64,000 nt of DNA from Zhongshania aquatica (GTDB taxonomy: Bacteria > Pseudomonadota > Gammaproteobacteria > Pseudomonadales > Spongiibacteraceae): positions 186,001 to 250,000 of the forward strand of contig NZ_JANZNQ010000001.1 of the NCBI RefSeq assembly GCF_027257955.1. The letters run 5' to 3'. The translations under genes and the position numbers were made by a program. Shown one piece after another: positions 1,446 through 19,550 of this stretch. Position 1 is the stretch's first letter; every line of letters begins with the position of its first letter. The notes beneath the pieces are model-generated. The model had not been told where the DNA came from and searched no databases. It saw only the letters and a list, made by a program, of their open reading frames with translations.

Positions 1446-2330
1446 TCAGCTACCATACACTTTTTGAGCCGGTACTGCCTCCGCCATGAGCGTTTTTACC
1501 GCTTCGCCAACCTCAGCAGGCTCCCAGCGCGCGCCCTTATCTACTTCGGGGCCCTTGCGCCAACCGTCAGCGAGGGAGATTTTTCCGCCCTCTGCCTCAA
1601 ACACACAACCAGTTACATGCGCTGATTCACTGCTGCCTAACCACACCAGTAGTGAAGACACATTTTCCGGTGCCCAAAAATCAAAGCTGCCATCGTCTGG
1701 CTTCGCCATGCGGGTGGCCATGGCCTCAACCGCCGTGGTCATATTGGTACGGGCTGCCGGTGCGACCGCATTCGCGGTAATACCGTAGCGGGCAAGCTCA
1801 GCGCCTTGGTTTAACGTCAGTGCAGCGATACCCGCTTTAGCAGCGGCATAATTTGATTGACCAATTGAGCCCTGCAAACCAGCACCCGAGGTTGTATTTA
1901 TAATGCGCGCATCGACAGGCTTACCCTCTTTGGATTTACCACGCCAGTAATGAACGGCGTGTGAAGTGATGCAAAAATGGCCTTTTAAATGCACGGCCAT
2001 GATGGTGTCCCATTCCGCCTCGGTCATCGACGCGAACATACGGTCGCGGTTAACACCGGCATTATTCAAAACAATATGGAGATCGCCAAAGGTGTCGATG
2101 GCCTGCTTCACCGCATTCAAGCTATCGTCGTAATTGGTAATATCAGAGGTATTCACCACAGCCTTACCACCGGCGGCAGTAATCTCATCCACCACTTTTT
2201 GCGCAGCCGCTTCGTTAATATCGTTGACTACAACCGAGGCGCCCTCAGCAGCAAATACTTTTGCATGTGCCGCACCAAGGCCGCCACCTGCACCGGTGAT
2301 AATCACCACTCTGTCATTACAAATTGCCAT
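1446..2330 (-). CDS. short-chain dehydrogenase/reductase of the HIP cluster
   Basis: NAD(P)-dependent SDR of 294 residues. The cofactor motif TGAGGGLG is at residues 12-19, NNAG at 89-92, and the catalytic Ser148, Tyr161 and Lys165 are all present with the standard 12-residue Ser-Tyr spacing. The C-terminal extension after about residue 250 resembles the 17-beta-HSD type 4 branch. Known steroid-degradation SDRs of similar style are IpdF and Rv3548c of Mycobacterium and ScdG of Comamonas, which act on hydroxyl/keto groups of HIP-CoA intermediates; which of these it equals cannot be settled by eye. GAGGA precedes the ATG. The 172-nt gap upstream to the thiolase stop carries two GTCNGAC-type heptamer arrays. 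Confidence 0.8.
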   Translation of the reverse strand: MAICNDRVVIITGAGGGLGAAHAKVFAAEGASVVVNDINEAAAQKVVDEITAAGGKAVVNTSDITNYDDSLNAVKQAIDTFGDLHIVLNNAGVNRDRMFASMTEAEWDTIMAVHLKGHFCITSHAVHYWRGKSKEGKPVDARIINTTSGAGLQGSIGQSNYAAAKAGIAALTLNQGAELARYGITANAVAPAARTNMTTAVEAMATRMAKPDDGSFDFWAPENVSSLLVWLGSSESAHVTGCVFEAEGGKISLADGWRKGPEVDKGARWEPAEVGEAVKTLMAEAVPAQKVYGS

Positions 2331-2357
2331 TACTGTTATTCCTCGTTTAAGTGATTG

Positions 2358-2378
2358 GTCAGACGTCTGATGTCTGAC
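2358..2378. repeat. GTCNGAC heptamer array 1 (3 units)
   Basis: Three abutting 7-bp units GTCAGAC, GTCTGAT and GTCTGAC, 28 nt upstream of the SDR start. The first two units hold the perfect palindrome TCAGACGTCTGA. It is the same unit family as the arrays at 2427, 3672, 3725, 6456 and 8343. Confidence 0.85.
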
Positions 2379-2426
2379 GAAAGGTCAAAAGCAGGCTTGA
2401 CAGTGCCTGGGAGTTGAATTTCCATT

Positions 2427-2503
2427 TTCCGACTTCCGACTTCCGACTTCCGACTTCCGACTTCCGACTTCCGACTTCCGACTTCCGACTTCTGACGTCC
2501 GAC
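2427..2503. repeat. Heptamer array 2 (11 units, mostly TTCCGAC)
   Basis: Nine perfect TTCCGAC copies (2427-2489) followed by TTCTGAC and GTCCGAC. The last base of the array is also the last base of the thiolase stop codon (TAG on the minus strand, 2503-2505), so the array lies directly 3' of that gene. The final two units join it to the GTCNGAC family seen in the other gaps of this cluster. Confidence 0.95.
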
Positions 2504-3651
2504 TAAAGTCTTTCAATTATCGTTACATTCGCCTGACCACCGCCTTCGCACATGGTCTGCAAACCATAGCGACCGCCGGTGCGCTCAAGCTCATGAAGCA
2601 AAGTCGTCATTAATTTTGTGCCTGTTGCGCCCAGTGGATGACCTAAGGCAATCGCACCACCATTCACATTGGTTTTAGCGTGGTCATAACCGGTTTCTTT
2701 CAACCACGCCATGACCACCGAGGCAAAGGCTTCGTTGATTTCGACAAGGTCAATATCCTGTAGAGACATGCCCGATTTTTTCAGTGCATATTCGGTGGCA
2801 GAAATCGGCGCCGTCAGCATCCAAATTGGATCGTCTGCACGCACACTCATATGATGAATACGAGCGCGGGGTGTTAAGTTATAGCGTTTAAGTGCCGCTT
2901 CACTAACAACAAGAACGGCACTAGACGCATCGCAGGTTTGGCTAGACACAGCCGCAGTCACTTTGTCGCAACCAAACAAAAAATCTAATTCCGCCATTTT
3001 TTCTAAGCTGGAATTACGCGGCGTTTCATCCATTTTCACGTCGCCAAAGGGAATAATTTCCTTATCGAAATGACCCGCGGCAATCGCTTTTAATGCGCGT
3101 TGATGCGACTCATAAGAAAACAGTTCTAAATCTTTACGCGATAAATTCCATTTATCGGCAATCATCTGTGCAGATTTAAACTGCGTCGGCGGCTCGGCAC
3201 CGTAGCGCTCAACCCAACCAGTCGATCCAGAGAAGGGGTCGCTAAAACCCAATGGCGCAGCCAGAGTCATCGCCGATGAAATAGGAATTTGCGTCATGGT
3301 CTGCACACCGCCCGCCACAATCACGTCCATACAACCAGACATAATTGCCTGCGCCGCAAAATGCACCGATTGCTGGGAAGAACCACACTGGCGATCAATA
3401 GTCGTACCCGGTACTTCTTGTGAAAGACCCGCCGCCAACCATGCGCTGCGTGCGATGTCGCCCGCGAGCGGGCCAACAGTATCTACACAACCAAAGATGA
3501 CATCGTCGTATTCATTATCAGGAATGCCATTGCGCTCAACGATAGCCTTTAAAACATGTGCACCCAAATCAGCACCGTGCACATGAGCAAGACCGCCTTT
3601 ACGGCGCCCTGTGGGGCTGCGAATTGCGTCTACGATATATGCTTCTGCCAT
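2503..3651 (-). CDS. fadA6: Thiolase, FadA6/ScdF-type
   Basis: A 382-residue thiolase-superfamily acetyl-CoA acyltransferase. The nucleophile Cys89 lies in DRQCGSS, the catalytic His338 in GHPLGATG, and the second Cys368 in the C-terminal CEGGGQ motif, so all catalytic residues are present. In HIP catabolism FadA6 cleaves the beta-ketoacyl-CoA formed after ring opening. Assignment to that step rests on neighbours (ipdABC, echA20-like hydrolase, ipdE genes) rather than on the thiolase sequence alone. Heptamer arrays lie on both sides: one ends in its stop codon and one lies 21 nt upstream of its start. Confidence 0.85.
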   Translation of the reverse strand: MAEAYIVDAIRSPTGRRKGGLAHVHGADLGAHVLKAIVERNGIPDNEYDDVIFGCVDTVGPLAGDIARSAWLAAGLSQEVPGTTIDRQCGSSQQSVHFAAQAIMSGCMDVIVAGGVQTMTQIPISSAMTLAAPLGFSDPFSGSTGWVERYGAEPPTQFKSAQMIADKWNLSRKDLELFSYESHQRALKAIAAGHFDKEIIPFGDVKMDETPRNSSLEKMAELDFLFGCDKVTAAVSSQTCDASSAVLVVSEAALKRYNLTPRARIHHMSVRADDPIWMLTAPISATEYALKKSGMSLQDIDLVEINEAFASVVMAWLKETGYDHAKTNVNGGAIALGHPLGATGTKLMTTLLHELERTGGRYGLQTMCEGGGQANVTIIERL

Positions 3652-3671
3652 GTTAAATCCTCGGTAATTTG

Positions 3672-3692
3672 GTCAGACGTCTGATGTCTGAT
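3672..3692. repeat. GTCNGAC heptamer array 3 (3 units)
   Basis: Units GTCAGAC, GTCTGAT and GTCTGAT just upstream of the thiolase start. It is identical to array 1 except for the last base, and holds the same TCAGACGTCTGA palindrome. Confidence 0.85.
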
Positions 3693-3724
3693 TCTTTATA
3701 AAAAATGCTCGGGCTGTGTTGGTC

Positions 3725-3752
3725 GTCCGACATCAGACACCTGACGTCAGAC
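3725..3752. repeat. GTCNGAC heptamer array 4 (4 units)
   Basis: Units GTCCGAC, ATCAGAC, ACCTGAC and GTCAGAC, ending 7 nt from the stop codon of the ipdE2-like gene. With array 3 it forms a pair within one 108-nt gap. Confidence 0.8.
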
Positions 3753-3759
3753 TAATAAG

Positions 3760-4815
3760 CTAAGCCGCAAATGTATTGCCCGCGCCTAATTTCGCTTCAT
3801 CACTAAACACAAACTCCGCAATGCGCTGCTTATGAAAACCGGCTGTGCCATAGCTGCTATTTAGCGCCCATGCGCGTTTCATGAAAATATGCAAATCCAC
3901 TTCCCAGGTGTAACCCATGGCGCCATGGACTTGAATGCTATTTTTAGCCGCTAAATCGGCTACTTCGCAGGCCACTACTTTGGCGTGGCTAACATTGTGC
4001 GAAGCACTAGATGCATTGTTTACCAGCGCGTAAGCGGCGCGATAAACCGGTGTTTTGGCGTACTCCAATTTGTAAGCGATATTTGCCATATGATGCTTAA
4101 CCGCTTGGAAGCTACCGATGGCGACACCAAACTGTTTGCGATCAGTGGTGTATTGCACAGAGATATCGATCATGCGCTGGGCAACACCAAGCGCCTGTGC
4201 TGCCGCTGCTAAAGCACCGCGATTAAGAGCAAACACAAGCAAGTCTTTTGCCTTTTGGCCGTCTGCTAATTTATGAGCCGCAGCGACATCAAATTCGACG
4301 GCAAACAATTTGCGCCCCAAATCAATGGACTCGTTGTAGCGAAGCTCAACTGCGCCCGCTTCCACCGCATACACCGCGCCGGCTTTTTCGAGAATCAACA
4401 GATCAGCGATATGCGCATCTTCAACTAAATTATTTACTTCCAGACCAACCACTACCTTGGCTTCGCCACTGGCGATTTTAGGAAGCCACTGCTCAGCAAA
4501 GGCAGAATCGCCAACCTCCATAATGGTTGGCACCGCAACCAGCGCGCTATGAACCAGCGGCTCAGCCAAAGCAACATAGCCCGCCTCCTGCGCTAGCAGA
4601 ACAAAATCCAACTCGTTCATACCCAAGCCACCATGAGCCTCGGGAACAGTAATGCCAGTAAGGCCCATCTCAACAAACTGCTGCCACAAAGCATCACTGC
4701 GACCAGACTCGGTTTGCCATGCCGCACGAATTGATTCCGGCGTAATTTCATTAACCAGAAAATCCCTTACCGACTCCTGAAACAACAACTGGTCTTCGCT
4801 AAATGTAAAATCCAT
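3760..4815 (-). CDS. ipdE2: Acyl-CoA dehydrogenase subunit, IpdE2-like
   Basis: A 351-residue acyl-CoA dehydrogenase-fold protein. The ATG at 4815 (MDFTFSEDQLL) follows GGAG and is preferred to a GTG 18 nt upstream. The N-terminal motif PEAHGGLGM is intact, but the C-terminal region lacks the usual GTNEIQ-type FAD motif and ends in a degenerate FHKQRIAEFVF stretch. That pattern fits the non-canonical subunit of the alpha2-beta2 acyl-CoA dehydrogenases of steroid degraders (ChsE and IpdE1-IpdE2 types). The probable partner is the canonical dehydrogenase encoded upstream (5241-6425); the two genes are separated by 425 nt of repeats. Subunit pairing is inference. Confidence 0.8.
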   Translation of the reverse strand: MDFTFSEDQLLFQESVRDFLVNEITPESIRAAWQTESGRSDALWQQFVEMGLTGITVPEAHGGLGMNELDFVLLAQEAGYVALAEPLVHSALVAVPTIMEVGDSAFAEQWLPKIASGEAKVVVGLEVNNLVEDAHIADLLILEKAGAVYAVEAGAVELRYNESIDLGRKLFAVEFDVAAAHKLADGQKAKDLLVFALNRGALAAAAQALGVAQRMIDISVQYTTDRKQFGVAIGSFQAVKHHMANIAYKLEYAKTPVYRAAYALVNNASSASHNVSHAKVVACEVADLAAKNSIQVHGAMGYTWEVDLHIFMKRAWALNSSYGTAGFHKQRIAEFVFSDEAKLGAGNTFAA

Positions 4816-5240
4816 AAATCTTTCTCCGAGCACTCGCCAACAAATCGAGAAAACTCAAAATTAATTTTTAATTTCCTAAAAACACCACCCAACCAAGCAG
4901 CGCAGATTTTTGTACGCTGGCAAGGCAAAAATGCGCGCAGGGCGGAAGCGTATATGCAATACGTAACCAACCGAGCACTTTTTTAACGCAGCCAGCGTGC
5001 AAAAAGATCGCTGCGAACCAAGGCCAAAATGCGTGCAGGGCGGGAGCGTATATGTAATACGTGACCAACCGAGCACTTTTTTAAACGCAGCCAGCGTGCA
5101 AAAAGATCGCTGCGTTTCCGACAAAATTGGAAATGAATATTTTCGCTGCATAGCGAGGCGAAATCGCGCGGAAGAAGGGAGCGTATAAATAATACGTGAC
5201 CGACTGAGCACGATTTCAACGCTGCTATGCGGTGAAAAGA
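4816..5240. other. 425-nt gap filled by intergenic repeats
   Basis: No gene is supported here. The short open frames in it are products of the repeat unit described at 4898-5243. This is the longest gap inside the otherwise compact catabolic cluster and separates two genes likely to encode subunits of one enzyme. Confidence 0.8.
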
Positions 5241-5243
5241 TCA
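4898..5243. repeat. 98-bp direct repeats with a diverged third copy
   Basis: Two near-identical tandem units lie at 4922-5019 and 5020-5113, with a 98-nt period. Each holds a GCGTATAT...AATACGT segment, the phrase CCAACCGAGCACTTTTTTA and the box CCAGCGTGCAAAAAGATCGC. A diverged third copy occupies 5155-5243, and its end supplies the DNA just after (and the stop codon of) the ipdE1-like gene. An inverted, degenerate copy of the CAGCGTGCAAAAAGATC box lies at 4898-4920, so transcripts could fold into long hairpins. I do not recognise the family. Confidence 0.85.
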
Positions 5244-6425
5244 TTTCCTCGGCATACCTAGTAGACGTTCGGCGATTATGTTTCGTTGTATCTCATTCGT
5301 TCCCGCATAAATCGGCCCCGACTGCGAGAACAACCAGCCATCTAACCAGCTACCTACTTCACCGGCGTCGGGTGCGTGGGGTACAAGCTCTGCCCGCGCG
5401 CCTAAAATTTTCAAGCCTAGACCGTGCATTTGCTGATCAAGCTCTGACCAAAATATTTTATTGGTTGAGGCTTCTGCGCCAATCTTGCCGCCCTGCATTA
5501 AGCGGCAGGCGGTTTGATAGGTGGTTAGTGCATAGGCTTCGGCATCCATGTAGGCACGCAACACCGCATCGCGTACGGCGGGGTCTTGGTCTGCACTTTC
5601 TTGATTGGCTTTGTATAAATTAACGAGGCGCTTTGCGGTTTCTTGAAAACGCGCAGGTGAACGGAGCATGAGGCCGCGCTCAAATCCGGCGGTGGCCATG
5701 GCCACACTCCAACCTTCGCCTTCACCACCTAAGCGGCAATCGACAGGTACTTTCACGTTGTCGAAAAATATTTCCGCAAAACCGGGCAAGCCATCGAGCT
5801 GGGGAATTGGACGAACGGTAATGCCCTCTGATTCCAGCGGCACCAAAATAAAGGTGAGTCCTTTGTGGCGCTCGGATGCCGGATCGGTTCTGAACATACC
5901 GAAACACCAGTCCGCCCACACTGCGCGGGTTGACCATGTTTTCTGGCCGTTGATTACGTAATGAGTACCGTCTTCGCTCAGCGTTGCAGTGGAGCGAATC
6001 GCCGCCATATCTGAACCGGCATTTGGCTCAGACCAGCCCTGACACCAGATATCTTTACCTGTTGCCATGCCGTTTAAAAATCGTTTTTTCTGCTCGTCGG
6101 TGCCGTATTCCATTAAGGTCGGACCGAGCAGGAATATGCCGTTTTGATTTACCCGCAGCGGTGCGCGTGCCGCGTAATACTCTTCTTCAAAAATAAGCCA
6201 TTGCAGAAGATCGGCGCCACGGCCGCCCATTTCCTCTGGCCAGGTAATCATGCCCCAACGGCCTTCGTAGAGTTTCGCTTCCCACTCGCGGTGCTGCTGA
6301 AAACCTTCTTCGGTATCGAAGGATTTTAGCGGTTCAGCAGGCACGTTAGCCGCAAGCCAAGCACGAATTTCAGCGCGGAAGGCGGTTTGTTCGGGTGTAT
6401 ATTCAAGTTGCATGTTGATATCCAA
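5241..6425 (-). CDS. ipdE1: Acyl-CoA dehydrogenase subunit, IpdE1-like
   Basis: A 394-residue canonical acyl-CoA dehydrogenase. The motif QGWSEPNAGSD is in the middle domain and YAGTNEIQRNIIAERLLG is at the C terminus, the FAD-binding signature that the ipdE2-like neighbour lacks. A second Met four residues in (MQLEYTPEQ) is an alternative start at 6413. IpdE1-IpdE2 heterotetramers carry out a dehydrogenation in HIP-CoA breakdown; this assignment follows from gene context and from the complementary subunit features. Heptamer array 5 lies 30 nt upstream of its start. The repeat array begins directly after its AAA TGA end. Confidence 0.8.
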   Translation of the reverse strand: MDINMQLEYTPEQTAFRAEIRAWLAANVPAEPLKSFDTEEGFQQHREWEAKLYEGRWGMITWPEEMGGRGADLLQWLIFEEEYYAARAPLRVNQNGIFLLGPTLMEYGTDEQKKRFLNGMATGKDIWCQGWSEPNAGSDMAAIRSTATLSEDGTHYVINGQKTWSTRAVWADWCFGMFRTDPASERHKGLTFILVPLESEGITVRPIPQLDGLPGFAEIFFDNVKVPVDCRLGGEGEGWSVAMATAGFERGLMLRSPARFQETAKRLVNLYKANQESADQDPAVRDAVLRAYMDAEAYALTTYQTACRLMQGGKIGAEASTNKIFWSELDQQMHGLGLKILGARAELVPHAPDAGEVGSWLDGWLFSQSGPIYAGTNEIQRNIIAERLLGMPRK

Positions 6426-6455
6426 TTACCGCGTTTATACTTTGTTACGGCGCGC

Positions 6456-6476
6456 GTCGGACGTCTGACGCCAGAC
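6456..6476. repeat. GTCNGAC heptamer array 5 (3 units)
   Basis: Units GTCGGAC, GTCTGAC and GCCAGAC in the 58-nt gap between the echA20-like stop (6484) and the ipdE1-like start. Confidence 0.8.
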
Positions 6477-6483
6477 GTGCCCT

Positions 6484-7236
6484 TTAAAATTTCGCATCGC
6501 GTTTTTCAACAAACGCGTCTTTGGCTTCCTGCGAATCAGGATCGGCATAAGCCTCCTGCGTGAAGCCCTGCTCCCAGCGGTATTTATCTTCTAAATTGCC
6601 GTCTTCAATACCGTTTAATGCTTCTTTGGCGAGCTGCACCATGCGAGGTGATTTAGCGGCCATTTTGCGAGCAATATCGCGGGCGGTATCTAATAGCTGA
6701 TCGCGAGGTACGACCCTTTCTACAGCACCTAAGCGGTAAGCTTCCTGCGCATCGATAGGCTCGCCAGTGAAATACATGTAGCGCACTTTTTGCACTGGGA
6801 ACATGCGCTGTAAATGTGCGCCGCCACCCATGGCACCGCGATCAACTTCTGGTACGGCGAAGGTGGCGCATTCAGAGGCAACTAACACATCGGCTGCGCC
6901 GCTAATGCCAATTCCGCCGCCCAGTACAAAACCGTGCACGGCAACAATCACCGGCTTGGGGTTACGGTGAATCGCTTTAAAGGTGTCGTAATTGCCTTTG
7001 TTTACTTTGGTGATCATGGCGCTATTGGCGGCAAGTTCTTTGATGTCGACACCGGCACAAAAACCACGACCTTCTGCCGCGATAATGATGGCGCGCACAT
7101 CGGGGTTTTCACCCAGTGCATTTAACTCGGCAGCAATCGCCAACCAGCCAGCGCTATTAAAGGCATTTACCGGCGGGTGATTAAAAATTACTTCGGCAAT
7201 ACCGCTGTCGATACGGGTAGAAAATGGCTGACTCAT
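6484..7236 (-). CDS. echA20: Crotonase-family ring hydrolase, EchA20-like
   Basis: A 250-residue crotonase-fold protein. The oxyanion-hole segments are CAGVD (60-64) and GGGIG (107-111), with acidic residues Glu130 and Asp132 in the catalytic stretch. EchA20 of Mycobacterium hydrolytically opens the last carbon ring of HIEC-CoA in the HIP pathway; ScdN of Comamonas is the proteobacterial counterpart. The assignment rests on position between ipdC and the ipdE genes. Its ATG follows GGGGAAATAATA, with the Shine-Dalgarno inside the end of ipdC; only 2 nt separate the two genes, so they are translationally linked. Confidence 0.8.
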   Translation of the reverse strand: MSQPFSTRIDSGIAEVIFNHPPVNAFNSAGWLAIAAELNALGENPDVRAIIIAAEGRGFCAGVDIKELAANSAMITKVNKGNYDTFKAIHRNPKPVIVAVHGFVLGGGIGISGAADVLVASECATFAVPEVDRGAMGGGAHLQRMFPVQKVRYMYFTGEPIDAQEAYRLGAVERVVPRDQLLDTARDIARKMAAKSPRMVQLAKEALNGIEDGNLEDKYRWEQGFTQEAYADPDSQEAKDAFVEKRDAKF

Positions 7237-7238
7237 TA

Positions 7239-8312
7239 TTATTTCCCCTGCGCTTGTAAACGCTGTAGTTGGGCTTCGGCCTCGGCAACCAGACCGCTAA
7301 TTAATTCTTCACAACTTAATAATTTATCGATAACACCGGCAACTTGGCCGGAAGGCAGCACGCCATCATCGGGACGTCCATCCACCATGGCTTTTTGAAT
7401 AATCATGGGCGCGTTGGCCGACATAATGGCTTGCGCTGGCGTCAGGTCGCCGTCTTTGCTCATCGCTAAGGCTGACTTAAGCAAACCGAAAATACTGGCA
7501 CCGGTAAACTTGCGGAAGGCCAAACCATTGCGCAGTGCAATCACTAATTTTTTAAGATTTCCCGCGCGCTCTAACTCACCTAAAAAGCGATTTAGAATCA
7601 TGCGCTGCTGAATACCGTCGAGTGCTTGGGAGACAATAATCTCGGCGGGATTTTTACAATCTAAGTAGCGCTGCTTAGTCGCCTCTGGGACGGGACTTTC
7701 CTTGGTCAATAAAAAGCGTGTTCCCATCGCGATGCCATCGGCACCAAAGGCCATGGCCGCAATTAAGCCGCGACCATCTTTAAAACCACCGGCGCCCAAC
7801 ACAGGAACCTGTGCGCCAACCGCGTCTACCACTTGTGGCAATAACAAGGTCGTTGGCACCGAGCCGGTGTGTCCACCGCCCTCGCCGCCCTGAACCGTGA
7901 CCGCATCGGCACCCATTTCCACCGCTTTAATCGCGTGTTTGGGCAAGCCGATGGTGGGCATACAGACCACGCCGGCATCTTTAAGCTTGGCGACCATGTC
8001 CTTGCCCGGTGAGCGCGAATAACTGACCGCCTTCACCTTGTGCTTAATGACCAGGTCGACAATCTCGGCAGCATTGGGCTGATACATATGAAAATTGACG
8101 CCGAAATTTGCCTCGGTTAATGACTTCACTTTGAGAATATCGGCTTCCATTTGCGCAGGCGGAATCGTTGCCCCCGCTAAAAAGCCAAAGCCACCGGCAT
8201 TGCCTGTGCCCGCCACCAACTGCGGATCGGCAACCCAGCCCATCGCGGTCTGGATGACAGGATAGCGGCAGCCGAGAAGTTCGGTAATTCGAGTATTAAG
8301 TAGCTTCGACAT
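7239..8312 (-). CDS. ipdC: FMN-dependent oxidoreductase IpdC (nitronate monooxygenase family)
   Basis: A 357-residue TIM-barrel flavoprotein of the NMO/2-nitropropane dioxygenase family. The N-terminal PVIQTAMGWVADP strand and the FMN phosphate-binding loop GGEGGGHTG (142-150) are clear. In steroid-degrading actinobacteria and proteobacteria the member next to ipdAB is IpdC (ScdK), which is needed for HIP-CoA catabolism and acts before ring opening. Neighbours on both sides (ipdB upstream, echA20-like downstream by 2 nt) make this the best reading rather than a detoxifying nitronate monooxygenase. Array 6 separates it from ipdB. Confidence 0.88.
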   Translation of the reverse strand: MSKLLNTRITELLGCRYPVIQTAMGWVADPQLVAGTGNAGGFGFLAGATIPPAQMEADILKVKSLTEANFGVNFHMYQPNAAEIVDLVIKHKVKAVSYSRSPGKDMVAKLKDAGVVCMPTIGLPKHAIKAVEMGADAVTVQGGEGGGHTGSVPTTLLLPQVVDAVGAQVPVLGAGGFKDGRGLIAAMAFGADGIAMGTRFLLTKESPVPEATKQRYLDCKNPAEIIVSQALDGIQQRMILNRFLGELERAGNLKKLVIALRNGLAFRKFTGASIFGLLKSALAMSKDGDLTPAQAIMSANAPMIIQKAMVDGRPDDGVLPSGQVAGVIDKLLSCEELISGLVAEAEAQLQRLQAQGK

Positions 8313-12554: not shown

Positions 12555-12806
12555 ATGGACGCGATTAGTTACACTGCGGCACGTGCCAATTTAGCGAAAA
12601 CGATGGAGAAGGTCTGTGATGACCATGCGCCAGTAATTATTACTAGAAAAAGCGAATCTCCAGTTGTGATGATTTCACTGGATGATTATCAAGCATTGGA
12701 GGAAACCGCCTACTTATTGCGATCTCCAGCAAACGCACGACACCTGCTTGAATCAATTGCCGAGCTAGAGGCGGGCAAAGGAACCGTGCGGGAACTTTTG
12801 GAATGA
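12555..12806 (+). CDS. yefM: Antitoxin YefM
   Basis: An 83-residue Phd/YefM-family antitoxin. The N-terminal DNA-binding half MDAISYTAARANLAKTM is followed by the family signature VIITRKSESPVVMISLDDYQALEET; the C-terminal third is acidic and would wrap the toxin. It overlaps the toxin gene by 4 nt (ATGA), giving translational coupling. A TGTAC inverted repeat lies just upstream. It neutralises the YoeB-type ribonuclease encoded next. Confidence 0.93.
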   Translation: MDAISYTAARANLAKTMEKVCDDHAPVIITRKSESPVVMISLDDYQALEETAYLLRSPANARHLLESIAELEAGKGTVRELLE

Positions 12807-13063
12807 CATTAACATTTTCGTCTAAAGCGTGGGAGAACTACCTTTATTGGCAAAAGACCGATAAAGCCATGCTAAAACGAGTAAACATGTTGATCAAAGA
12901 TATTCAGCGTGATCCCTTTGATGGTATTGGGAAACCGGAGCCATTAAAGCACGGCTTATCTGGATATTGGTCTCGACGAATCAATGACGAGCATCGAATT
13001 GTTTATAAAGTTGCTGGCGACAAGCTTTTTATTGCGCAACTTAGATACCACTACGAGTACTAG
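12803..13063 (+). CDS. yoeB: Toxin YoeB (ribosome-dependent mRNA endonuclease)
   Basis: An 86-residue RelE/YoeB-family toxin. The catalytic set of YoeB is intact at the positions used for the Escherichia coli protein: Glu46 (KPEPLK), Arg65 (DEHRIVY), His83 and Tyr84 (RYHYEY). It should cleave mRNA in the ribosomal A site unless bound by YefM. The stop codon runs straight into the cassette-end box GCACATAAC, a compactness typical of integron cassettes. TA pairs in cassettes are thought to stabilise arrays. Confidence 0.95.
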   Translation: MTLTFSSKAWENYLYWQKTDKAMLKRVNMLIKDIQRDPFDGIGKPEPLKHGLSGYWSRRINDEHRIVYKVAGDKLFIAQLRYHYEY

Positions 13064-13625: not shown

Positions 13626-15461
13626 CTAAGGCTCGGCACTCTCTGTTATCAACCAGCTGCCGGCAGTTAACTCATCACGAGAGAAAGGCCGCAGCTGCAA
13701 GAAGTTCGAGGATATTCTTGGTAGCCACCCCACATAACTTTCGCTATCGTGGTGAAAAACTAGTAGCTGTTGTGTTCCGCTTGACACATTAGTAATCAGT
13801 GAGGAGTTAGAACGGAGCGTTAGATCCATGTTAACGGCGAAACTGTATAGGTCACTGACAGCACGATTGGAATCCCACAGAATATAAAACGTGTCGGCAT
13901 AGGTTATCGCCCGGAGCTTATACTTTTCATAGCGAATCCCCTTTTCACTTTTAGGCCCCAGTATCTTTGTGGGTACCGACTGCAAGGACTCCCCCAGCAA
14001 GCTGTACTGACGCCCCAATATCTGATCATCATATTTTCCCGAGCCGTCTATTGCTGTTCTTCGCTCCACCCAAAATACAGTCACAGTGGATCCAATAATG
14101 GCCACAGCGGGATCGCGTAGCCCAGCATCCGAACTACTCTGCACAACAATAGGAGCGCTGGCGAATTGCTGGCCGTCTGTATTCAGCAAACTCAATTGCG
14201 TATTCGAGGAGCTTGGGTCACCTGCCTTTGGAAAATTCCACACAAGTGCAATTGTGTCACCTGAGTGAGCTATCTCCAGACGTTGTGACTCCTGATCGTC
14301 GGTAACCACCAAGTCCGTTGCATAGGACTGAAGGTCGGAAGTATTGTAGTTGTTGTCTAACAGTAATCCTTCTAGTGAGTGCGCCTCACCATTACTTGCC
14401 TTATGCCGAAGCCACGTTAGGAAATAGCGCTCCCCCGTATAGACCGCTTTCAAATTACTCAACGTGCTGGTGTCCTCGAATACATTCACCGCGTCCAGAC
14501 TCTTTCCTTGGTCAACAGCCTCTCCCTGACTGTTAAGAAAACGCGCATAAAGCGTGTCTCCGCTACCCGACCTTGTGGCATACGCTAGCAAATAACCCGC
14601 CCCATCAAAGGTCAATGAAGTAGCTGAACACGCTGATGTTCCTGAAGGAAAGGTATCTAATGTTACAGGTGGGGTGATAATGCGTCCTGACGCCAACCCA
14701 ACCGTTTTAAGAGACAAAGTGTTACCAGATTCTAACTCGCAGTATGCAAACAGTGTCTGGTTTCCGCTGCTAGCGGTAGCAACATGACCAGAAATCTGAC
14801 TACTCTGAAGAGGTAAAAGAAGACCAAAACGCATAGTTTCGGCGAGAGAGTAAGCAACGGTTTCATAGCGCGTAAAGTAGTTAGCGTCGGCAGCATAGAG
14901 GAGCGTGTAAAATTTCTGCCCTACCTCAACGGTAGTGTGCAAGAATCGAAACGTATCTGGTATCCACATCGAACCATCAAGTTCACTATCATCTTCAACA
15001 TCAATGATACTTACTCTCTTATATATATCTTGGTGAGGATTTCCTTCATACACATATTGGTGGGCTGGATAACCATCAATGACAATGTCATGACTAGAGA
15101 GCAGGTTTACGTTGCGGATTTCCCGGATAAAGGATTCGTCGTTAGACTCGGTTCCGATGACGAGGAACAGAGCTCGCCATTTACCTTTAGATATATCAAG
15201 GGGTTCTATCTCAGGTTCCAAGACGGGATAGCCCGCGGACCCCGATTGAGGAGACTCCCAATACGGTAAGGTTACATTCACTGAATCCTGAACGAGGCTG
15301 TGGCGTACATACCGTAGAGTATCTGGATTCACCGGCGTTGCGACCGCCGAATCATTTGGGAGAGTGGCATTATTATTTCCACCGCCACCGCCACAACTAG
15401 GGAGAAGTAAACAGAATAAGATTATCTGAAAAAAATGCCGGACTGAGACTTTTAAAAACAT
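13626..15461 (-). CDS. Large lipoprotein of unknown function
   Basis: A 611-residue predicted lipoprotein. The signal segment SVRHFFQIILFCLLLPSC ends in a lipobox, followed by a Gly/Asn-rich linker (CGGGGGNNNAT). The rest is rich in beta-strand patterns with repeated short motifs such as YFLTWLRHKA, LVWNFPKAG and VFWVERRTA, spaced at about 60-70 residues; this suggests a beta-propeller of several blades. No catalytic motif was recognised. It lies between relic DNA on one side and the IS fragment/cassette array on the other, transcribed away from the array. It could be part of the accessory region. Confidence 0.7.
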   Translation of the reverse strand: MFLKVSVRHFFQIILFCLLLPSCGGGGGNNNATLPNDSAVATPVNPDTLRYVRHSLVQDSVNVTLPYWESPQSGSAGYPVLEPEIEPLDISKGKWRALFLVIGTESNDESFIREIRNVNLLSSHDIVIDGYPAHQYVYEGNPHQDIYKRVSIIDVEDDSELDGSMWIPDTFRFLHTTVEVGQKFYTLLYAADANYFTRYETVAYSLAETMRFGLLLPLQSSQISGHVATASSGNQTLFAYCELESGNTLSLKTVGLASGRIITPPVTLDTFPSGTSACSATSLTFDGAGYLLAYATRSGSGDTLYARFLNSQGEAVDQGKSLDAVNVFEDTSTLSNLKAVYTGERYFLTWLRHKASNGEAHSLEGLLLDNNYNTSDLQSYATDLVVTDDQESQRLEIAHSGDTIALVWNFPKAGDPSSSNTQLSLLNTDGQQFASAPIVVQSSSDAGLRDPAVAIIGSTVTVFWVERRTAIDGSGKYDDQILGRQYSLLGESLQSVPTKILGPKSEKGIRYEKYKLRAITYADTFYILWDSNRAVSDLYSFAVNMDLTLRSNSSLITNVSSGTQQLLVFHHDSESYVGWLPRISSNFLQLRPFSRDELTAGSWLITESAEP

Positions 15462-15608
15462 AATTGAATTCCATTTCTTTTACAGCATTTATTCACGTCT
15501 TATAATTTTTATCAACAAAATAATTTAATGTAGTTGAAGTTAATTTAACCGCCCCTCGACACCATAGACACCACTTTGTAGTATGACTATAGCGGTTACT
15601 TGTATTAT

Positions 15609-15862
15609 CTATTCATACGCCGGTCAACCACCGTCGTCGTTTTGATAGTGCACGTCAAATGCAGACAGGTCTACGCGTTTATCAATCAGATGATGTATGG
15701 CGTGTTCGAAGGTACCTGACTGGAGCTGGTCTTCGTAATTGATTACAATCATCGCGCTTTGATTGTAGTCGTAGGGTTTGAACTTGGGCATTCGCATTAC
15801 GCCTTAATGCTTTGGTCAATTTTAGCAAAACTTTATCAAAATAGGGGTTTTTATACAGCCTC
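15609..15862 (-). mobile_element. IS1182-like insertion-sequence fragment
   Basis: The presumed terminal repeat GAGGCTGTATAAAAACC (minus strand, 15862-15846) lies next to the attC site. It is followed by the transposase start at 15797 and its decayed N-terminal region ending near 15609. The remaining body and the other end are missing. The element appears inserted at the GTT of the attC R' box. Confidence 0.65.
15624..15797 (-). pseudogene. Truncated IS1182-like transposase (N-terminal 57 residues)
   Basis: The 57-residue reading frame begins MRMPKFKPYDYNQSAMIVIN and continues through YEDQLQSGTFEHAIHHLID and LSAFDVHYQNDD. This matches the well-known N terminus of IS1182-family transposases (KPYDYNQ, then GTxExAIxxLxD, then NDxxGxPAY). 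The frame stops at a TGA exactly where the family has a residue before PAY; reading past it gives PAYE and then TAG. So it carries at least two nonsense changes and the remaining 400 or so residues are gone. It is a dead remnant. Confidence 0.8.
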
Positions 15863-15863
15863 A

Positions 15864-15944
15864 ACGCCCGCAGCACGCGCGGCTTTTCTGTGAAGGCGAA
15901 GCCGTAACGGAAAAGCCGTCGCTGTGCCTGCGTTTGTTATATTC
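15864..15944 (-). other. attC recombination site C (3' of the DUF4238 cassette)
   Basis: On the minus strand the site runs from R'' GAATATAAC (15944-15936) to GGGCGTT at the R' side (about 15864). Inner arms GGCTTTTC and GAAAAGCC give a strong imperfect hairpin, as attC bottom strands require. R'' is the exact reverse complement of the first nine bases of its cassette (GTTATATTC at 16810-16802). The R' side is followed at once by the IS terminus, so this attC may be interrupted. Confidence 0.75.
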
Positions 15945-15945
15945 T

Positions 15946-16797
15946 TTAGCCATGGACAGACTCTTTAGTTGGCCCGATCACCCACCTTTCAGCATTGTTT
16001 TTTATTAATTCATTTATTGCCATCACCTGACTAGAATTAATGAATGCGTGTTTAATATCCGATTTAACTGACGATAGAGCCAGACATAACTGTCGAGACA
16101 GTGGGATAAGAATAATGTATTCATCCCCACCGCTGAATAATTGATCTATTACAATTGGGCCGTCTTTTATAATAAATGGTTGATCACAAAGAAGAACATC
16201 GGCTTCTAATGAATAAAGAAATAGCCAGCCCATGGAATCATGGATGTAAGCCGCATTTTCCTGCGCATTCTCAATCATCTTCACAAGCGTAATATTACGT
16301 GATTCTGAAAATGATAACCCTTCAAAAAGGCTGTCGTTATTCAGGTCTAAACCCTTTTCTTTCGCTTTTTCCTTGGCGGCTTCATCACCCCTTGCATGCT
16401 TTAAAATTTCTCTGATGAGCACCCGGTCAAACCCATCCTGATATTCATTGATGAGACTTGGATGCCTTGCAGATAAAAATCCGAAGAACCTTGATAGGTT
16501 ATATAAACTAACATCGGTTTTGTCGGGATCATCAGATATCAACTTTCCCACTTCAGTTGCGAACGCACCATCAATTGTTGATAGCATCGGATTTTCGATC
16601 AATGTTGGTGAGTCAGACGCTTTTGCCGTTTCTCCCGTTAGAGAGTAAAGAAAGTTTTCAGAACAAAAGTTCCTAGGGCCGGCAGGCCCGACAACTCTCG
16701 AGTCCGTTTTATCTAGATAAAACAGGTTCTTGCCATCTAGCGAGAATAGAAGTTGATAAGACTGGGGAACATAATGATGACTCTTGGGATTACTCAT
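15946..16797 (-). CDS. DUF4238 family protein (integron cassette gene 3)
   Basis: A 283-residue DUF4238 protein, with the family opening KSHHYVPQSYQLLF, a treble of conserved aromatic/His residues, and no membrane segment. DUF4238 proteins are found in many mobile regions and their biochemical role is unknown. The ATG lies 11 nt inside the cassette boundary with no Shine-Dalgarno, and the stop codon is 1 nt from the R'' box. Its base composition is visibly more AT-rich than the catabolic cluster. Two attC sites flank it (A upstream, C downstream on the minus strand), so it is a self-contained cassette. Confidence 0.85.
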   Translation of the reverse strand: MSNPKSHHYVPQSYQLLFSLDGKNLFYLDKTDSRVVGPAGPRNFCSENFLYSLTGETAKASDSPTLIENPMLSTIDGAFATEVGKLISDDPDKTDVSLYNLSRFFGFLSARHPSLINEYQDGFDRVLIREILKHARGDEAAKEKAKEKGLDLNNDSLFEGLSFSESRNITLVKMIENAQENAAYIHDSMGWLFLYSLEADVLLCDQPFIIKDGPIVIDQLFSGGDEYIILIPLSRQLCLALSSVKSDIKHAFINSSQVMAINELIKNNAERWVIGPTKESVHG

Positions 16798-16808
16798 AAT
16801 TGAATATA

Positions 16809-16876
16809 ACGCCCAAAGCAGCGGCGCGCGTTAGCGCGTCCAGCCCGCAGGGCGATGCTGCCTTTGCTTGTTATAT
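16809..16876 (-). other. attC recombination site A (between cassettes 2 and 3)
   Basis: On the minus strand: R'' ATATAAC (16876-16870), then an arm GGCAGC, a GC-rich centre, the partner arm GCTGCTTTGGGC, and R' GCGTTATA. R'' is the reverse complement of the first seven bases of cassette 2 (GTTATAT at 17203-17197). It is 68 bp long with clear imperfect dyad symmetry. Confidence 0.85.
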
Positions 16877-16878
16877 AC

Positions 16879-17190
16879 TTACTGCCTTGGTTTAACTGCA
16901 TACTTAAAAAAATAGTAAGGGTATGCAAAGCTGCCTATAAAAAGGAATAATGCATACCACTTACTACGTTCTCCTTTGTCACTAAATCTCTGGCGCACAT
17001 CTTTTAGACACAAAATGGCACCAAATAAAACTAAAGGCAGTGATACCCACCAAAATACATTGTATTGCTCTAAGGTCATGTAGGCCTCTTTACCTTGCAA
17101 GCTTGCTTGAACCTCCATGTGTGTTACGACAATAAAGATTAAAGCCCAGATTAGTGACAGAGAGGTCAGGGTTTTCTCGATCTTGTTCAT
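16879..17190 (-). CDS. Small polytopic membrane protein (integron cassette gene 2)
   Basis: A 103-residue protein with three predicted membrane helices: about residues 8-28 (SLSLIWALIFIVVTHM), 45-63 (VFWWVSLPLVLFGAILCL) and 81-98 (WYALFLFIGSFAYPYYFF). It ends in the basic tail KYAVKPRQ. I do not recognise a family. The ATG is 12 nt from the cassette boundary and the stop codon is 2 nt from the attC R'' box, leaving no room for its own promoter or a ribosome site. Small membrane proteins are common cassette cargo. Confidence 0.8.
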   Translation of the reverse strand: MNKIEKTLTSLSLIWALIFIVVTHMEVQASLQGKEAYMTLEQYNVFWWVSLPLVLFGAILCLKDVRQRFSDKGERSKWYALFLFIGSFAYPYYFFKYAVKPRQ

Positions 17191-17201
17191 AGTTGCATAT
17201 A

Positions 17202-17315
17202 ACGCCTACTGCAGCGGCAGACAAAATGGAGCGTGTTTTTGTGCAAAAATGAGCGGAGCGATTGCACAAAAAGGCGCGGAGTTTTGACTGTCCGACTGCC
17301 GGTACTTGTTAAGTG
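17202..17315 (-). other. attC recombination site B (between cassettes 1 and 2)
   Basis: On the minus strand: R'' CACTTAACA (17315-17307), arm CCGGCAGTCGG, an inner stem with GTGCAATCGC and GCACAAA-type arms, partner arm GTCTGCCGCTGC, and R' GGCGTTATAT. R'' is the exact reverse complement of the first bases of cassette 1 (TGTTAAGTG, ending near 17745). It is 114 bp, longer than site A but within the usual attC range. The stop codon of the cassette-1 gene lies inside R''. Confidence 0.85.
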
Positions 17316-17737
17316 TTTGTTATATTTTTGAACCATTTTTCATATTTCAACTTGTTTTTGTATTTGATATTCAGCCTGTTTGCACCTGATGTTGCTCGCT
17401 GTATCATCATGAATGCCTCACCAAATCGGTCTAGCTGAATAGATTCATCGTCACCTAAATCATGGTGCTTCACTTGATTTTTAGCTTCATTATATATTTT
17501 TCTGATTTCACCCTTTGAAATATGTTTGATACCAAGTATTGATCTAACTTTATTTGCTCTTGTCCATTCATGATTGAAAGGTTCGATCCCTTCCTTGCTG
17601 TGAATCAGTCCCTCAAATATTTCTGCAGCAGCGCCAAGCAGGGTTAAGCTAGAAACATATCGCTTTTCCAAAAATAATACGATGCCATCTTCTAGCTGCT
17701 CTTTTGCTACATTTTCCTTTCTAGACGGACGAGCCAT
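17309..17737 (-). CDS. Hypothetical soluble protein (integron cassette gene 1)
   Basis: A 142-residue basic, helical protein (MARPSRKENVAKEQLEDGI, then FLEKRYVSSLTLLGAAAEIF). I do not recognise a family; the repeated helical character and HEWTRANKVRSILG motif suggest an all-alpha fold. The ATG at 17737 is only about 8 nt from the cassette boundary GTTAAGTG, and a GTG two codons earlier is the alternative. There is no Shine-Dalgarno. The TAA stop lies within the attC B R'' box. As first cassette it would be expressed from outside promoters upstream of 17750. Confidence 0.8.
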   Translation of the reverse strand: MARPSRKENVAKEQLEDGIVLFLEKRYVSSLTLLGAAAEIFEGLIHSKEGIEPFNHEWTRANKVRSILGIKHISKGEIRKIYNEAKNQVKHHDLGDDESIQLDRFGEAFMMIQRATSGANRLNIKYKNKLKYEKWFKNITNT

Positions 17738-18050
17738 ATACACTTAACAGTTTTGTTATGACGACTCAGGCCACATATCACTTTGGCCCCCTTATCACGG
17801 AACTGGCTTTTACGTTGATTGAAAAAATTTGGGAATTCAATGGGATATCGACCTCGCTATTAGCGAGCGCCCGACAAACGAAGACTAGTTCCCTTTATTT
17901 CTGCCAAACATTCCTTTCCCCTGATCATATCCTGTTTTTTATGTTTTTCAATAAGTTATGTCATTCTAAAATGTGTTAATGAGAATGGCTCTACTGTTCA
18001 CAAGGGTTTAATCGTCGGGAACCGCTAATCTCAATAAAGACACAAACCCA
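17738..18050. other. Gap upstream of the cassette array
   Basis: No gene is supported in these 313 nt and no integrase or attI-linked promoter was recognised. The only notable signal is the cassette boundary, with CATAACAAAACTG next to TTAAGTG at 17744-17760. Confidence 0.55.
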
Positions 18051-19550
18051 CTACAACCGAGTAGCAGTCACCGGCTGCGCCAATATCCACAAACCAAAAC
18101 ACGTAAAAATAATCATCAAGACCAGCATGGGCAATTGACTCAGCGTTGCCTGCCGACGCTGCGGAAATAGCAGCAGCGCTTCTTTATGGGCTAAGTACAC
18201 GCTGAGCACGTGGCCAAAAAGGATTAAACCCACCTGCGTATGCCAAACCCAATCCATATTGGGGATAACTGATTCGGGTCGCCAATGGGCGCTGCCGAAT
18301 AAATTCCAAGACCAGCCGAAGGGATCTGAGATCAGTCGCCATATCATTACGCCTTGGGTGCTGATCAAAGTGTAGTAATGGGTGATGTGGTAGACCAAGG
18401 CGATGGGTAAAAGTGAGTAGGTGAAATGTAAGGCGAGTGAGGATAGCGATGCGTGATACTTTGTTAGCCGACGTACGATTGCCAGAAAGAAATACAGTAC
18501 GCCAAGGTAAAACAGCGGCGACAACACCAGCACGGTGGTTTCGAAAACGCCATGCGCCGCTTTTAATACCGGATAGGCCTGCACAATATTTTGGCTTTTG
18601 TATTCTCTGTATATTCCGGCGATGTCTTGCCAAAAGAACGTTGCCCAGATATTGGTGCTGTGCAAACCGTCGAATGCGGTTGACGATAATAGGAATAAGA
18701 CAAACAGCAGCTCACTCATTGAGGATGCTTTGCCAATTTGGAGACCAGAGAACGGCATGCGTAAAATCACCGCTGGGCGTGACTGGGATTCATCTCTTGC
18801 TTGAATAAAAACCGGCGCCATTTTAGAGATCAGCGCAAATAGAACTGCAAAGAACTCGCCATACTTAAACCAGCGCTCGCTGCCAAGCAACCACGCCGCT
18901 ACAAGGTTTAGTACGCTGTATGCCAGCAAGACGCTCGCTAGCCCTCGCGGGCCGCTTTCGCCAAATAGTTCAAACCAAACAAATCCGATGTAGAGCAATA
19001 AGGCTGGCCAATATTCTAGTTTTTCACCCCAGCGAGTACGCCCTGAAAAATCAATTTTAAACACCGCCGCCAAACAAAGCACCATGGTTTGCCAAGGGTT
19101 TACTAGCGGGTAAAGATTACCCACCAAGGCACTAAAATACGCGAAGCCTAAAACAAATATGATCCAAAAGAAGGTCATATTAAAATTTAAAAAGGCATTC
19201 GCCGTGCCCCACAAACCGGTGGCGATACACAACAGTAAAGCGAATAAACTCACTATGCGTAAAACGAGAATCGCGATGGGAGATATGACAAACAGGTTTT
19301 TTTCGTGCAGAGGCTGGGACGAATCTTGCGCGGCGCGCTGATCGCTGGCGAACCACGCCACCAATAAAAACGACAGCAGCAAGGCCGCCGCACTGCCCCA
19401 AGCGTATAACCAAAACGGCACAGGTAAGGTGTAAAGCGTACCAAAGGAATGCGACCACGCTGGCGCTGCAAATGCGGCTAGGCTAATGGCCAGCAGCCAA
19501 TACAGACTCCGTGTACTGGCGGTCTTTTGGCCGCTGCGCTTAAACACCAT
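18051..19550 (-). CDS. Polytopic membrane protein (often labelled fenitrothion hydrolase-like)
   Basis: A 499-residue integral membrane protein with about 11-13 hydrophobic segments and an N-terminal signal-like helix. The family phrase HSFGTLYTLPVPFWLYAWG follows the first segment. Similar proteins are often named fenitrothion hydrolase after one experimentally studied member; that name should not be taken as its function. Several intramembrane His and Trp residues (HITHYYTL, MDWVWHTQVGLILFGH) suggest a metal or heme ligand role, which is inference. It follows the LVIVD lipoprotein gene by 17 nt and is the last gene of the fadD3-lrp-lrp operon. Confidence 0.7.
   Translation of the reverse strand: MVFKRSGQKTASTRSLYWLLAISLAAFAAPAWSHSFGTLYTLPVPFWLYAWGSAAALLLSFLLVAWFASDQRAAQDSSQPLHEKNLFVISPIAILVLRIVSLFALLLCIATGLWGTANAFLNFNMTFFWIIFVLGFAYFSALVGNLYPLVNPWQTMVLCLAAVFKIDFSGRTRWGEKLEYWPALLLYIGFVWFELFGESGPRGLASVLLAYSVLNLVAAWLLGSERWFKYGEFFAVLFALISKMAPVFIQARDESQSRPAVILRMPFSGLQIGKASSMSELLFVLFLLSSTAFDGLHSTNIWATFFWQDIAGIYREYKSQNIVQAYPVLKAAHGVFETTVLVLSPLFYLGVLYFFLAIVRRLTKYHASLSSLALHFTYSLLPIALVYHITHYYTLISTQGVMIWRLISDPFGWSWNLFGSAHWRPESVIPNMDWVWHTQVGLILFGHVLSVYLAHKEALLLFPQRRQATLSQLPMLVLMIIFTCFGLWILAQPVTATRL

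Follow-up and report, generated by a model that had tools for sequence, protein, structure and literature searches.

The window, i.e. the whole stretch of 64,000 nucleotides that was analyzed, is G000:C19:186001-250000; the draft assembly to which it belongs totals 4.49 Mb in 107 contigs, contig C19 measuring 440 kb. The minus strand of the window carries three genes coding for 142, 103 and 283 amino acids, each of them ending at a palindrome of 73-118 bp (Table 1); they are flanked by genes for 499 aa (18051-19550) and 611 aa (13626-15461). The first-pass annotation had described three minus-strand genes, each with an attC-like palindrome at its end, and we found them at the positions it gave; its DUF4238 cargo also agrees with the match of the 283-aa gene to PF14022. 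The genes of cassettes 1 and 2 gave no Pfam or NCBIfam model over its cut-off, none of the three genes matched PADLOC at E <= 0.01, and the gene of cassette 1 (searched as 17309-17734, i.e. without the first Met) gave no useful match in PDB. Searches with Rfam returned nothing over threshold in the 64-kb window and nothing up to E 1 in 15500-18050. Elsewhere in the window, a YoeB-type toxin gene was found at 12803-13063 (PF06769, E 6.8e-39).

Table 1. Features of the cassette array and its head, in window coordinates.
Feature	Position	Strand	Basis
attI module (promoter-like sequence, leader, attI)	17742..18003	-	86.6% to C33 leader; 97% in Z. aquimaris
Promoter-like TTGAAA (17946-17951), 16 bp, TATGAT (17924-17929)	17924..17951	-	sequence only, points at cassettes
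Conserved attI core	17745..17804	-	43-copy alignment; R2 71.8 bits
Crossover point G|TT	between 17748 and 17747	-	in attI module
Cassette 1	17203..17747	-	bounded by G|TT points
Cassette 1 gene, 142 aa, no family found	17309..17737	-	ORF list, profile searches
attC 1	17197..17314	-	R1 43.3 bits, E 1.4e-7; 81% to C33:6596-6715
Cassette 2	16810..17202	-	bounded by G|TT points
Cassette 2 gene, 103 aa, probable small membrane protein (by eye)	16879..17190	-	no family over cut-off
attC 2	16804..16876	-	R1 47.7 bits, E 1.5e-8; 97% over 71 bp to C33:2048-2118
Cassette 3	15865..16809	-	bounded by G|TT points
Cassette 3 gene, DUF4238 protein, 283 aa	15946..16797	-	PF14022 E 3.9e-29
attC 3; R' box part of right flank	15859..15942	-	R1 30.7 bits, E 1.1e-4; Z. 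aquimaris has same junction
Right flank, 57-aa fragment like DDE transposase start	15624..15797	-	likeness to L331 protein judged by eye

A covariance model of 90 positions and 16 pairs, R1, was trained on 12 attC sites, all from contig C33 of the same genome and none from the window; a thirteenth C33 site was excluded for its decayed L' arm. The alignment was made with masked middles, MAFFT on whole attC sites having misaligned the left arms. In the training set 81.3% of the cells were paired, versus 61.4% after shuffling and 32-43% when slid by 1-3 columns, and the covariation score was 0.550 versus 0.169. Failure of such a model at the three palindromes had been named beforehand as the result that would speak against the array; R1 matched all three, and its sole further match up to E 10 in the 64 kb was the attI simple site (17742-17761, 12.8 bits). 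The bottom strands of the three sites also fold better than their dinucleotide shuffles, a check proposed together with the former, with z values of -5.3, -2.9 and -5.0, and 0, 2 and 0 of 200 shuffles equalling the natural sites.

Moreover, the first-pass annotation had read a trace of recombination in three pairs of complementary bases, those leading each cassette and those of the R'' box at its own 3' end. The three pairs are present in the sequence, and the traces are real: of 95 cassettes in the retrieved arrays, 67 have four variable R'' bases that all pair with the R box before them, whereas 5000 shuffles gave 3.9 such cassettes on average and 12 at most. Identical rows were dropped from this count, among them the third cassette of the window, which has the same seven-base pair as the second; where the script misread a pair, as with the first one of C33, a miss was scored. 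A scan that required R'' and R' of a single site to be complementary did not work, since in an integrated site the R' is part of the following cassette. When the array DNA was compared with the 18 genomes of the genus, one of the 60 matches listed was the array itself and the other 59 all fell on the three attC sites (overhang of at most 16 bases), none lying within the genes; recombination sites that are shared while the genes differ are the signature of cassettes. In a genome-wide attC search, where 150 of 1100 candidates were scored and one of the window sites is absent from the list, at least 22 matches were obtained.

The array is headed by a module homologous to DNA that lies beside an integrase gene. 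Bases 17735-18003 share 86.6% identity over 269 bp with C33:7266-7534. This part of C33 is the leader that separates a divergently oriented intI from its cassette array; thus the window array starts at an attI of its own. The attI that belongs to a complete integron appears to be present here, as judged by homology to this intI-adjacent attI. At its end the module has a core of the form GGCC-AAAGTGATAT-..-GGCC-TGAGTCGTCAT-AACAAAACTG|TTA, whose two GGCC blocks we infer to be direct-repeat integrase sites as in other attI sites. The promoter-like sequence, to which the name Pc was given by its position only, is conserved as TTGAAA-16-TATGAT in most of 22 aligned copies of the module; as a candidate promoter it would express the first cassettes.

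No intI was found in the 64-kb window with TIGR02249, in agreement with the earlier statement that the window holds no integrase; the nearest match on the contig is a decayed fragment at C19:173139-173691, 28 kb from the array. A second decayed fragment is located at C39:953-1421, and a nearly whole intI, scoring 418.8 bits with TIGR02249 (over cut-off), on C33, where R1 finds 13 attC sites, 12 of them being its own training set. This intI carries a single in-frame TGA at a position where a relative has a sense codon; because of this stop in the strain's own intI, the array may be static in this strain. A box at C33:7565-7580, before the C33 intI, is LexA-like; it was not seen in two related aligned leaders.

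We then turn to the genus, represented by 18 Zhongshania genomes, among them the one under study (G000), Z. aquimaris CAU 1632 (G008), Z. aliphaticivorans BC9_2A (G017) and a record titled Spongiibacter thalassae KMU-166 (G001), which is counted within the set. BLAST located nine copies of the module in the strain's own genome (window and C33 counted) and detected it in 13 of the 18 genomes. R2, a sequence-only model of the 60-bp attI core made from 43 copies including that of the window, gave 79 matches in 16 of the 18 genomes; the maximum per genome was nine with the core model or ten with BLAST. Of the 79 cores, 5 lie within 500 bp of an intI match (E <= 1e-60). Most copies run up to CTGTTA and differ in sequence beyond it, and a second subfamily, having the leader of G007's own intI, follows the same plan. 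One array of the strain's own genome (C38, L091:5217-6545) contains a second attI module, which an IS110-type transposase gene (PF01548, PF02371) interrupts close to the end of the module.

The position of attC sites around the modules is strongly polar. In equal flanks of 1.4 kb, same-strand attC matches were found downstream of 32 of 63 BLAST copies, other-strand matches downstream of none, and upstream matches at one, which is the second of the two modules in the C38 array; the remaining 11 of the 74 copies had too little room and were excluded. This count replaces an earlier one with unequal flanks, which had given 46 downstream versus 1 upstream of 74. Counting against our main reading, the other 31 of the 63 countable copies had no attC within 1.4 kb. 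Among the core-model matches, a subset of 13 loci new to the analysis showed same-strand attC downstream in 13/13, up to 2.5 kb off, and in 10/12 within 1.4 kb; one of these loci has a second core, which lies at a contig end and lacks room. Some of the attC matches used are weak (16-22 bits, and 19-22 bits among these 13 loci).

Cassettes differ at the same module between two species. At the window locus the module and flanks of Z. aquimaris are 96-97% identical to those of the strain's own genome, which has three cassettes there versus one different cassette, with a 332-aa gene, in Z. aquimaris; in both genomes the cassettes lie between ...AAAACTG|TTA and ...GCG|TTGAGGCTGTATAAAAACC. A second pair, the solo attI of own contig C63 and that at C1:1897k of Z. 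aquimaris, differs by a clean 684-bp cassette insertion, ...AAAACTG|TTAGGCGGCC versus ...AAAACTG|TT[684 bp with an attC]...GGGCG|TTAGGCGGCC. The same cassette was also found on two platforms in three instances: own C33 and C28 (96% over 449 bp), G017 C11 and G015 C3 (99.5% over 367 bp), and G008 C1:922k and G007 C1:844k (95% over 1575 bp). Regarding cargo, a solo platform of Z. aquimaris (L106:4760-6306) carries a 184-aa gene together with a gene for a GmrSD_N protein (PF03235 E 3e-22; PADLOC NsnA E 4.1e-32), possibly a defence pair.

The first-pass annotation had interpreted the locus as an integrase-less cassette array of the CALIN type. This stands by definition, as there are at least two attC sites without a neighbouring intI and the recombination traces are real; what it did not include is that the array is headed by a dispersed attI module. 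Since the module lies upstream of the cassettes and is dispersed in the genus, the array is better called an integrase-less attI platform than a set of attC sites without a platform. We consider it probable, from the comparison of module homology, attC polarity, G|TT junctions, cassette differences in two species and shared cassettes, that this is an attI-headed cassette array without an integrase of its own, one solo platform of a dispersed family that is loaded in trans. Many of the modules head a small array of their own. An IntI provided in trans, whose most likely source is the integron that now lies on C33, a chromosomal one, or the ancestor of that integron, would recombine the attC sites of cassettes with a solo attI and insert them at its G|TT point; a single enzyme may thus serve, or have served, many scattered landing sites.

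Three genomes without an intI match at E <= 1e-60, G002, G008 and G017, have 4, 9 and 7 cores, and G013 has neither; G006, with three intI matches and no core match, counts against platforms loaded in trans. The reading is also weakened by the stop in the strain's own intI and by the lack of an intI match at E <= 1e-60 in Z. aquimaris, which leave a present supply of IntI in these two genomes unproven.

Alternatively, each solo attI could be the remnant of a complete integron that lost its intI in place, the window array then being a degraded one. In line with such decay, the homology of the window module to C33 ends about 65 bp short of the intI start codon, decayed intI fragments exist elsewhere in the genome, and two solo-looking copies (G003 C14 and G008 C10) share partial intI-region DNA upstream. 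Random loss would not leave a common boundary, whereas the 22 aligned copies, taken from different loci, share roughly one starting point, GTGAACA..., and the DNA above it is common only to copies at the same locus, to three intI-type copies, or over short stretches; furthermore, the module is present at the window locus in five genomes (own, Z. aquimaris, G005, G017 and G003), none of them with an intI match at E <= 1e-60 there. We therefore regard decay in place as unlikely. Off-target insertion, in which cassettes enter the genome at a non-att site (attG type), is a known route to CALINs (PMC8618304); it seems very improbable to us here, since the insertion point reproduces the attI found beside intI, leader included, and is not an unrelated site. 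A misjoined or split integron is hardly credible: several other arrays of the draft do lie at contig ends, whereas that of the window is inside its 440-kb contig, and Z. aquimaris has the corresponding locus, complete with module, cassette and right flank, inside a contig of 1.93 Mb.

How the platforms might have reached so many loci was approached through their ends. A 24-bp end, TGTYGATTYMYCCATAAHYTGRCC, allowing at most one mismatch, occurs 14 times in the 18 genomes versus 0 times for the reversed pattern, and in 5 of the 14 occurrences an attI core lies 323-502 bp inside it. Two platforms of G001 have inverted 24-bp ends on both sides (L326 reverse 2412-7867 and L327 reverse 1494-4172), forming units of 5.5 kb and 2.7 kb in which attI and cassettes are enclosed by TGTYGATTCMCCCATAAA-type inverted ends; these ends show 1-3 mismatches to the pattern used, the best of twenty shuffles of one locus having 5. 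They may resemble IS21-type ends. None of the listed ORFs of the 5.5-kb unit looked like an integrase or a transposase, no target-site duplication was seen by eye at the two units, inverted 24-bp ends were not found at the window locus, and a 63-nt query from an inverted end gave one short, chance-like plasmid match. Spread of the platforms by transposition is a lead that these repeats suggest. More tentatively, with the balance of our judgement somewhat on the side of doubt, the whole might form a distributed integron, in which one IntI fills in trans many short transposable units made of a promoter and attI and devoid of integrase and transposase.

For seven copies, the flanking DNA was set against that of relatives: similarity is lost some 25-250 bp above the module, and a clean empty site including both sides was not obtained. 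The C1:922k locus of Z. aquimaris was considered as an empty site in the strain's own genome and discarded, other genes being present there. At the other end of the window array (15624-15864), TTGAGGCTGTATAAAAACC begins directly after the last attC, with the fragment resembling the start of a DDE transposase, a full 520-aa copy of which is encoded at L331:3042-4604. A similar R' box with the motif follows 21 of 151 attC matches examined, so that elements of this kind might be preferentially located at the ends of arrays. The motif GTTGAGGCTGTA behind arrays resembled a native right arm; in one locus, however, a complete DDE-transposase element begins with it.

Among known systems, CALINs share with the window an attC array without a neighbouring intI (PMC9024848, PMC8618304); they have been proposed to arise by off-target insertion, by loss of intI or degradation of integrons, and by rearrangement (PMC8618304, PMC9024848), and a large survey counted 2961 of them versus 2760 complete integrons (PMC9024848, PMC8618304). 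What sets the window array apart is the attI module at its head, which includes a promoter-like sequence and is dispersed. IntegronFinder 2, as described, does not detect attI outside class 1 (PMC9024848). A sedentary chromosomal integron has in common an attI, a promoter-like sequence and an attC array, and C33 carries such an integron; unlike it, the window locus lacks intI and the genome offers many landing sites instead of one. The nearest case is that of the Xanthomonas CALINs, where genomes that may retain intI have several arrays without integrase at recurrent loci; these CALINs are said to be mobilisable in trans, and, unlike for the window array, no attI is described in the portion of that account available to us (PMC12444791). 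The MITE-flanked class 1 integrons of Acinetobacter likewise lie between inverted-repeat elements, although they carry intI1, and in our case the inverted ends belong to two other platforms, not to the window locus (PMC10969869). In the Delta-attI-type gene cassettes an attI is found away from its usual place and is recombined there by IntI1; as reported, a partial attI replaces the attC of the cassette, whereas here a whole module heads the array (PMC12901181). No published dispersed, attI-headed, integrase-less platform was found among titles and abstract openings, mostly of papers outside subscription.

The array family is a new variant of the integron. It adds a route by which CALINs could originate, the dispersal of a landing site with its promoter-like leader followed by loading in trans. 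If true, a single integrase could supply many loci with cassettes next to a promoter, and CALINs would be read differently; part of those in other bacteria could be such platforms, overlooked as their attI was not searched for. Outside the genus, R2 gave five weak matches in one of 39 genomes, G021, which belongs to another family of the order (L321-L325). All five are followed by same-strand attC and one lies beside the intI of that genome; thus dispersed platforms may not necessarily be confined to Zhongshania.
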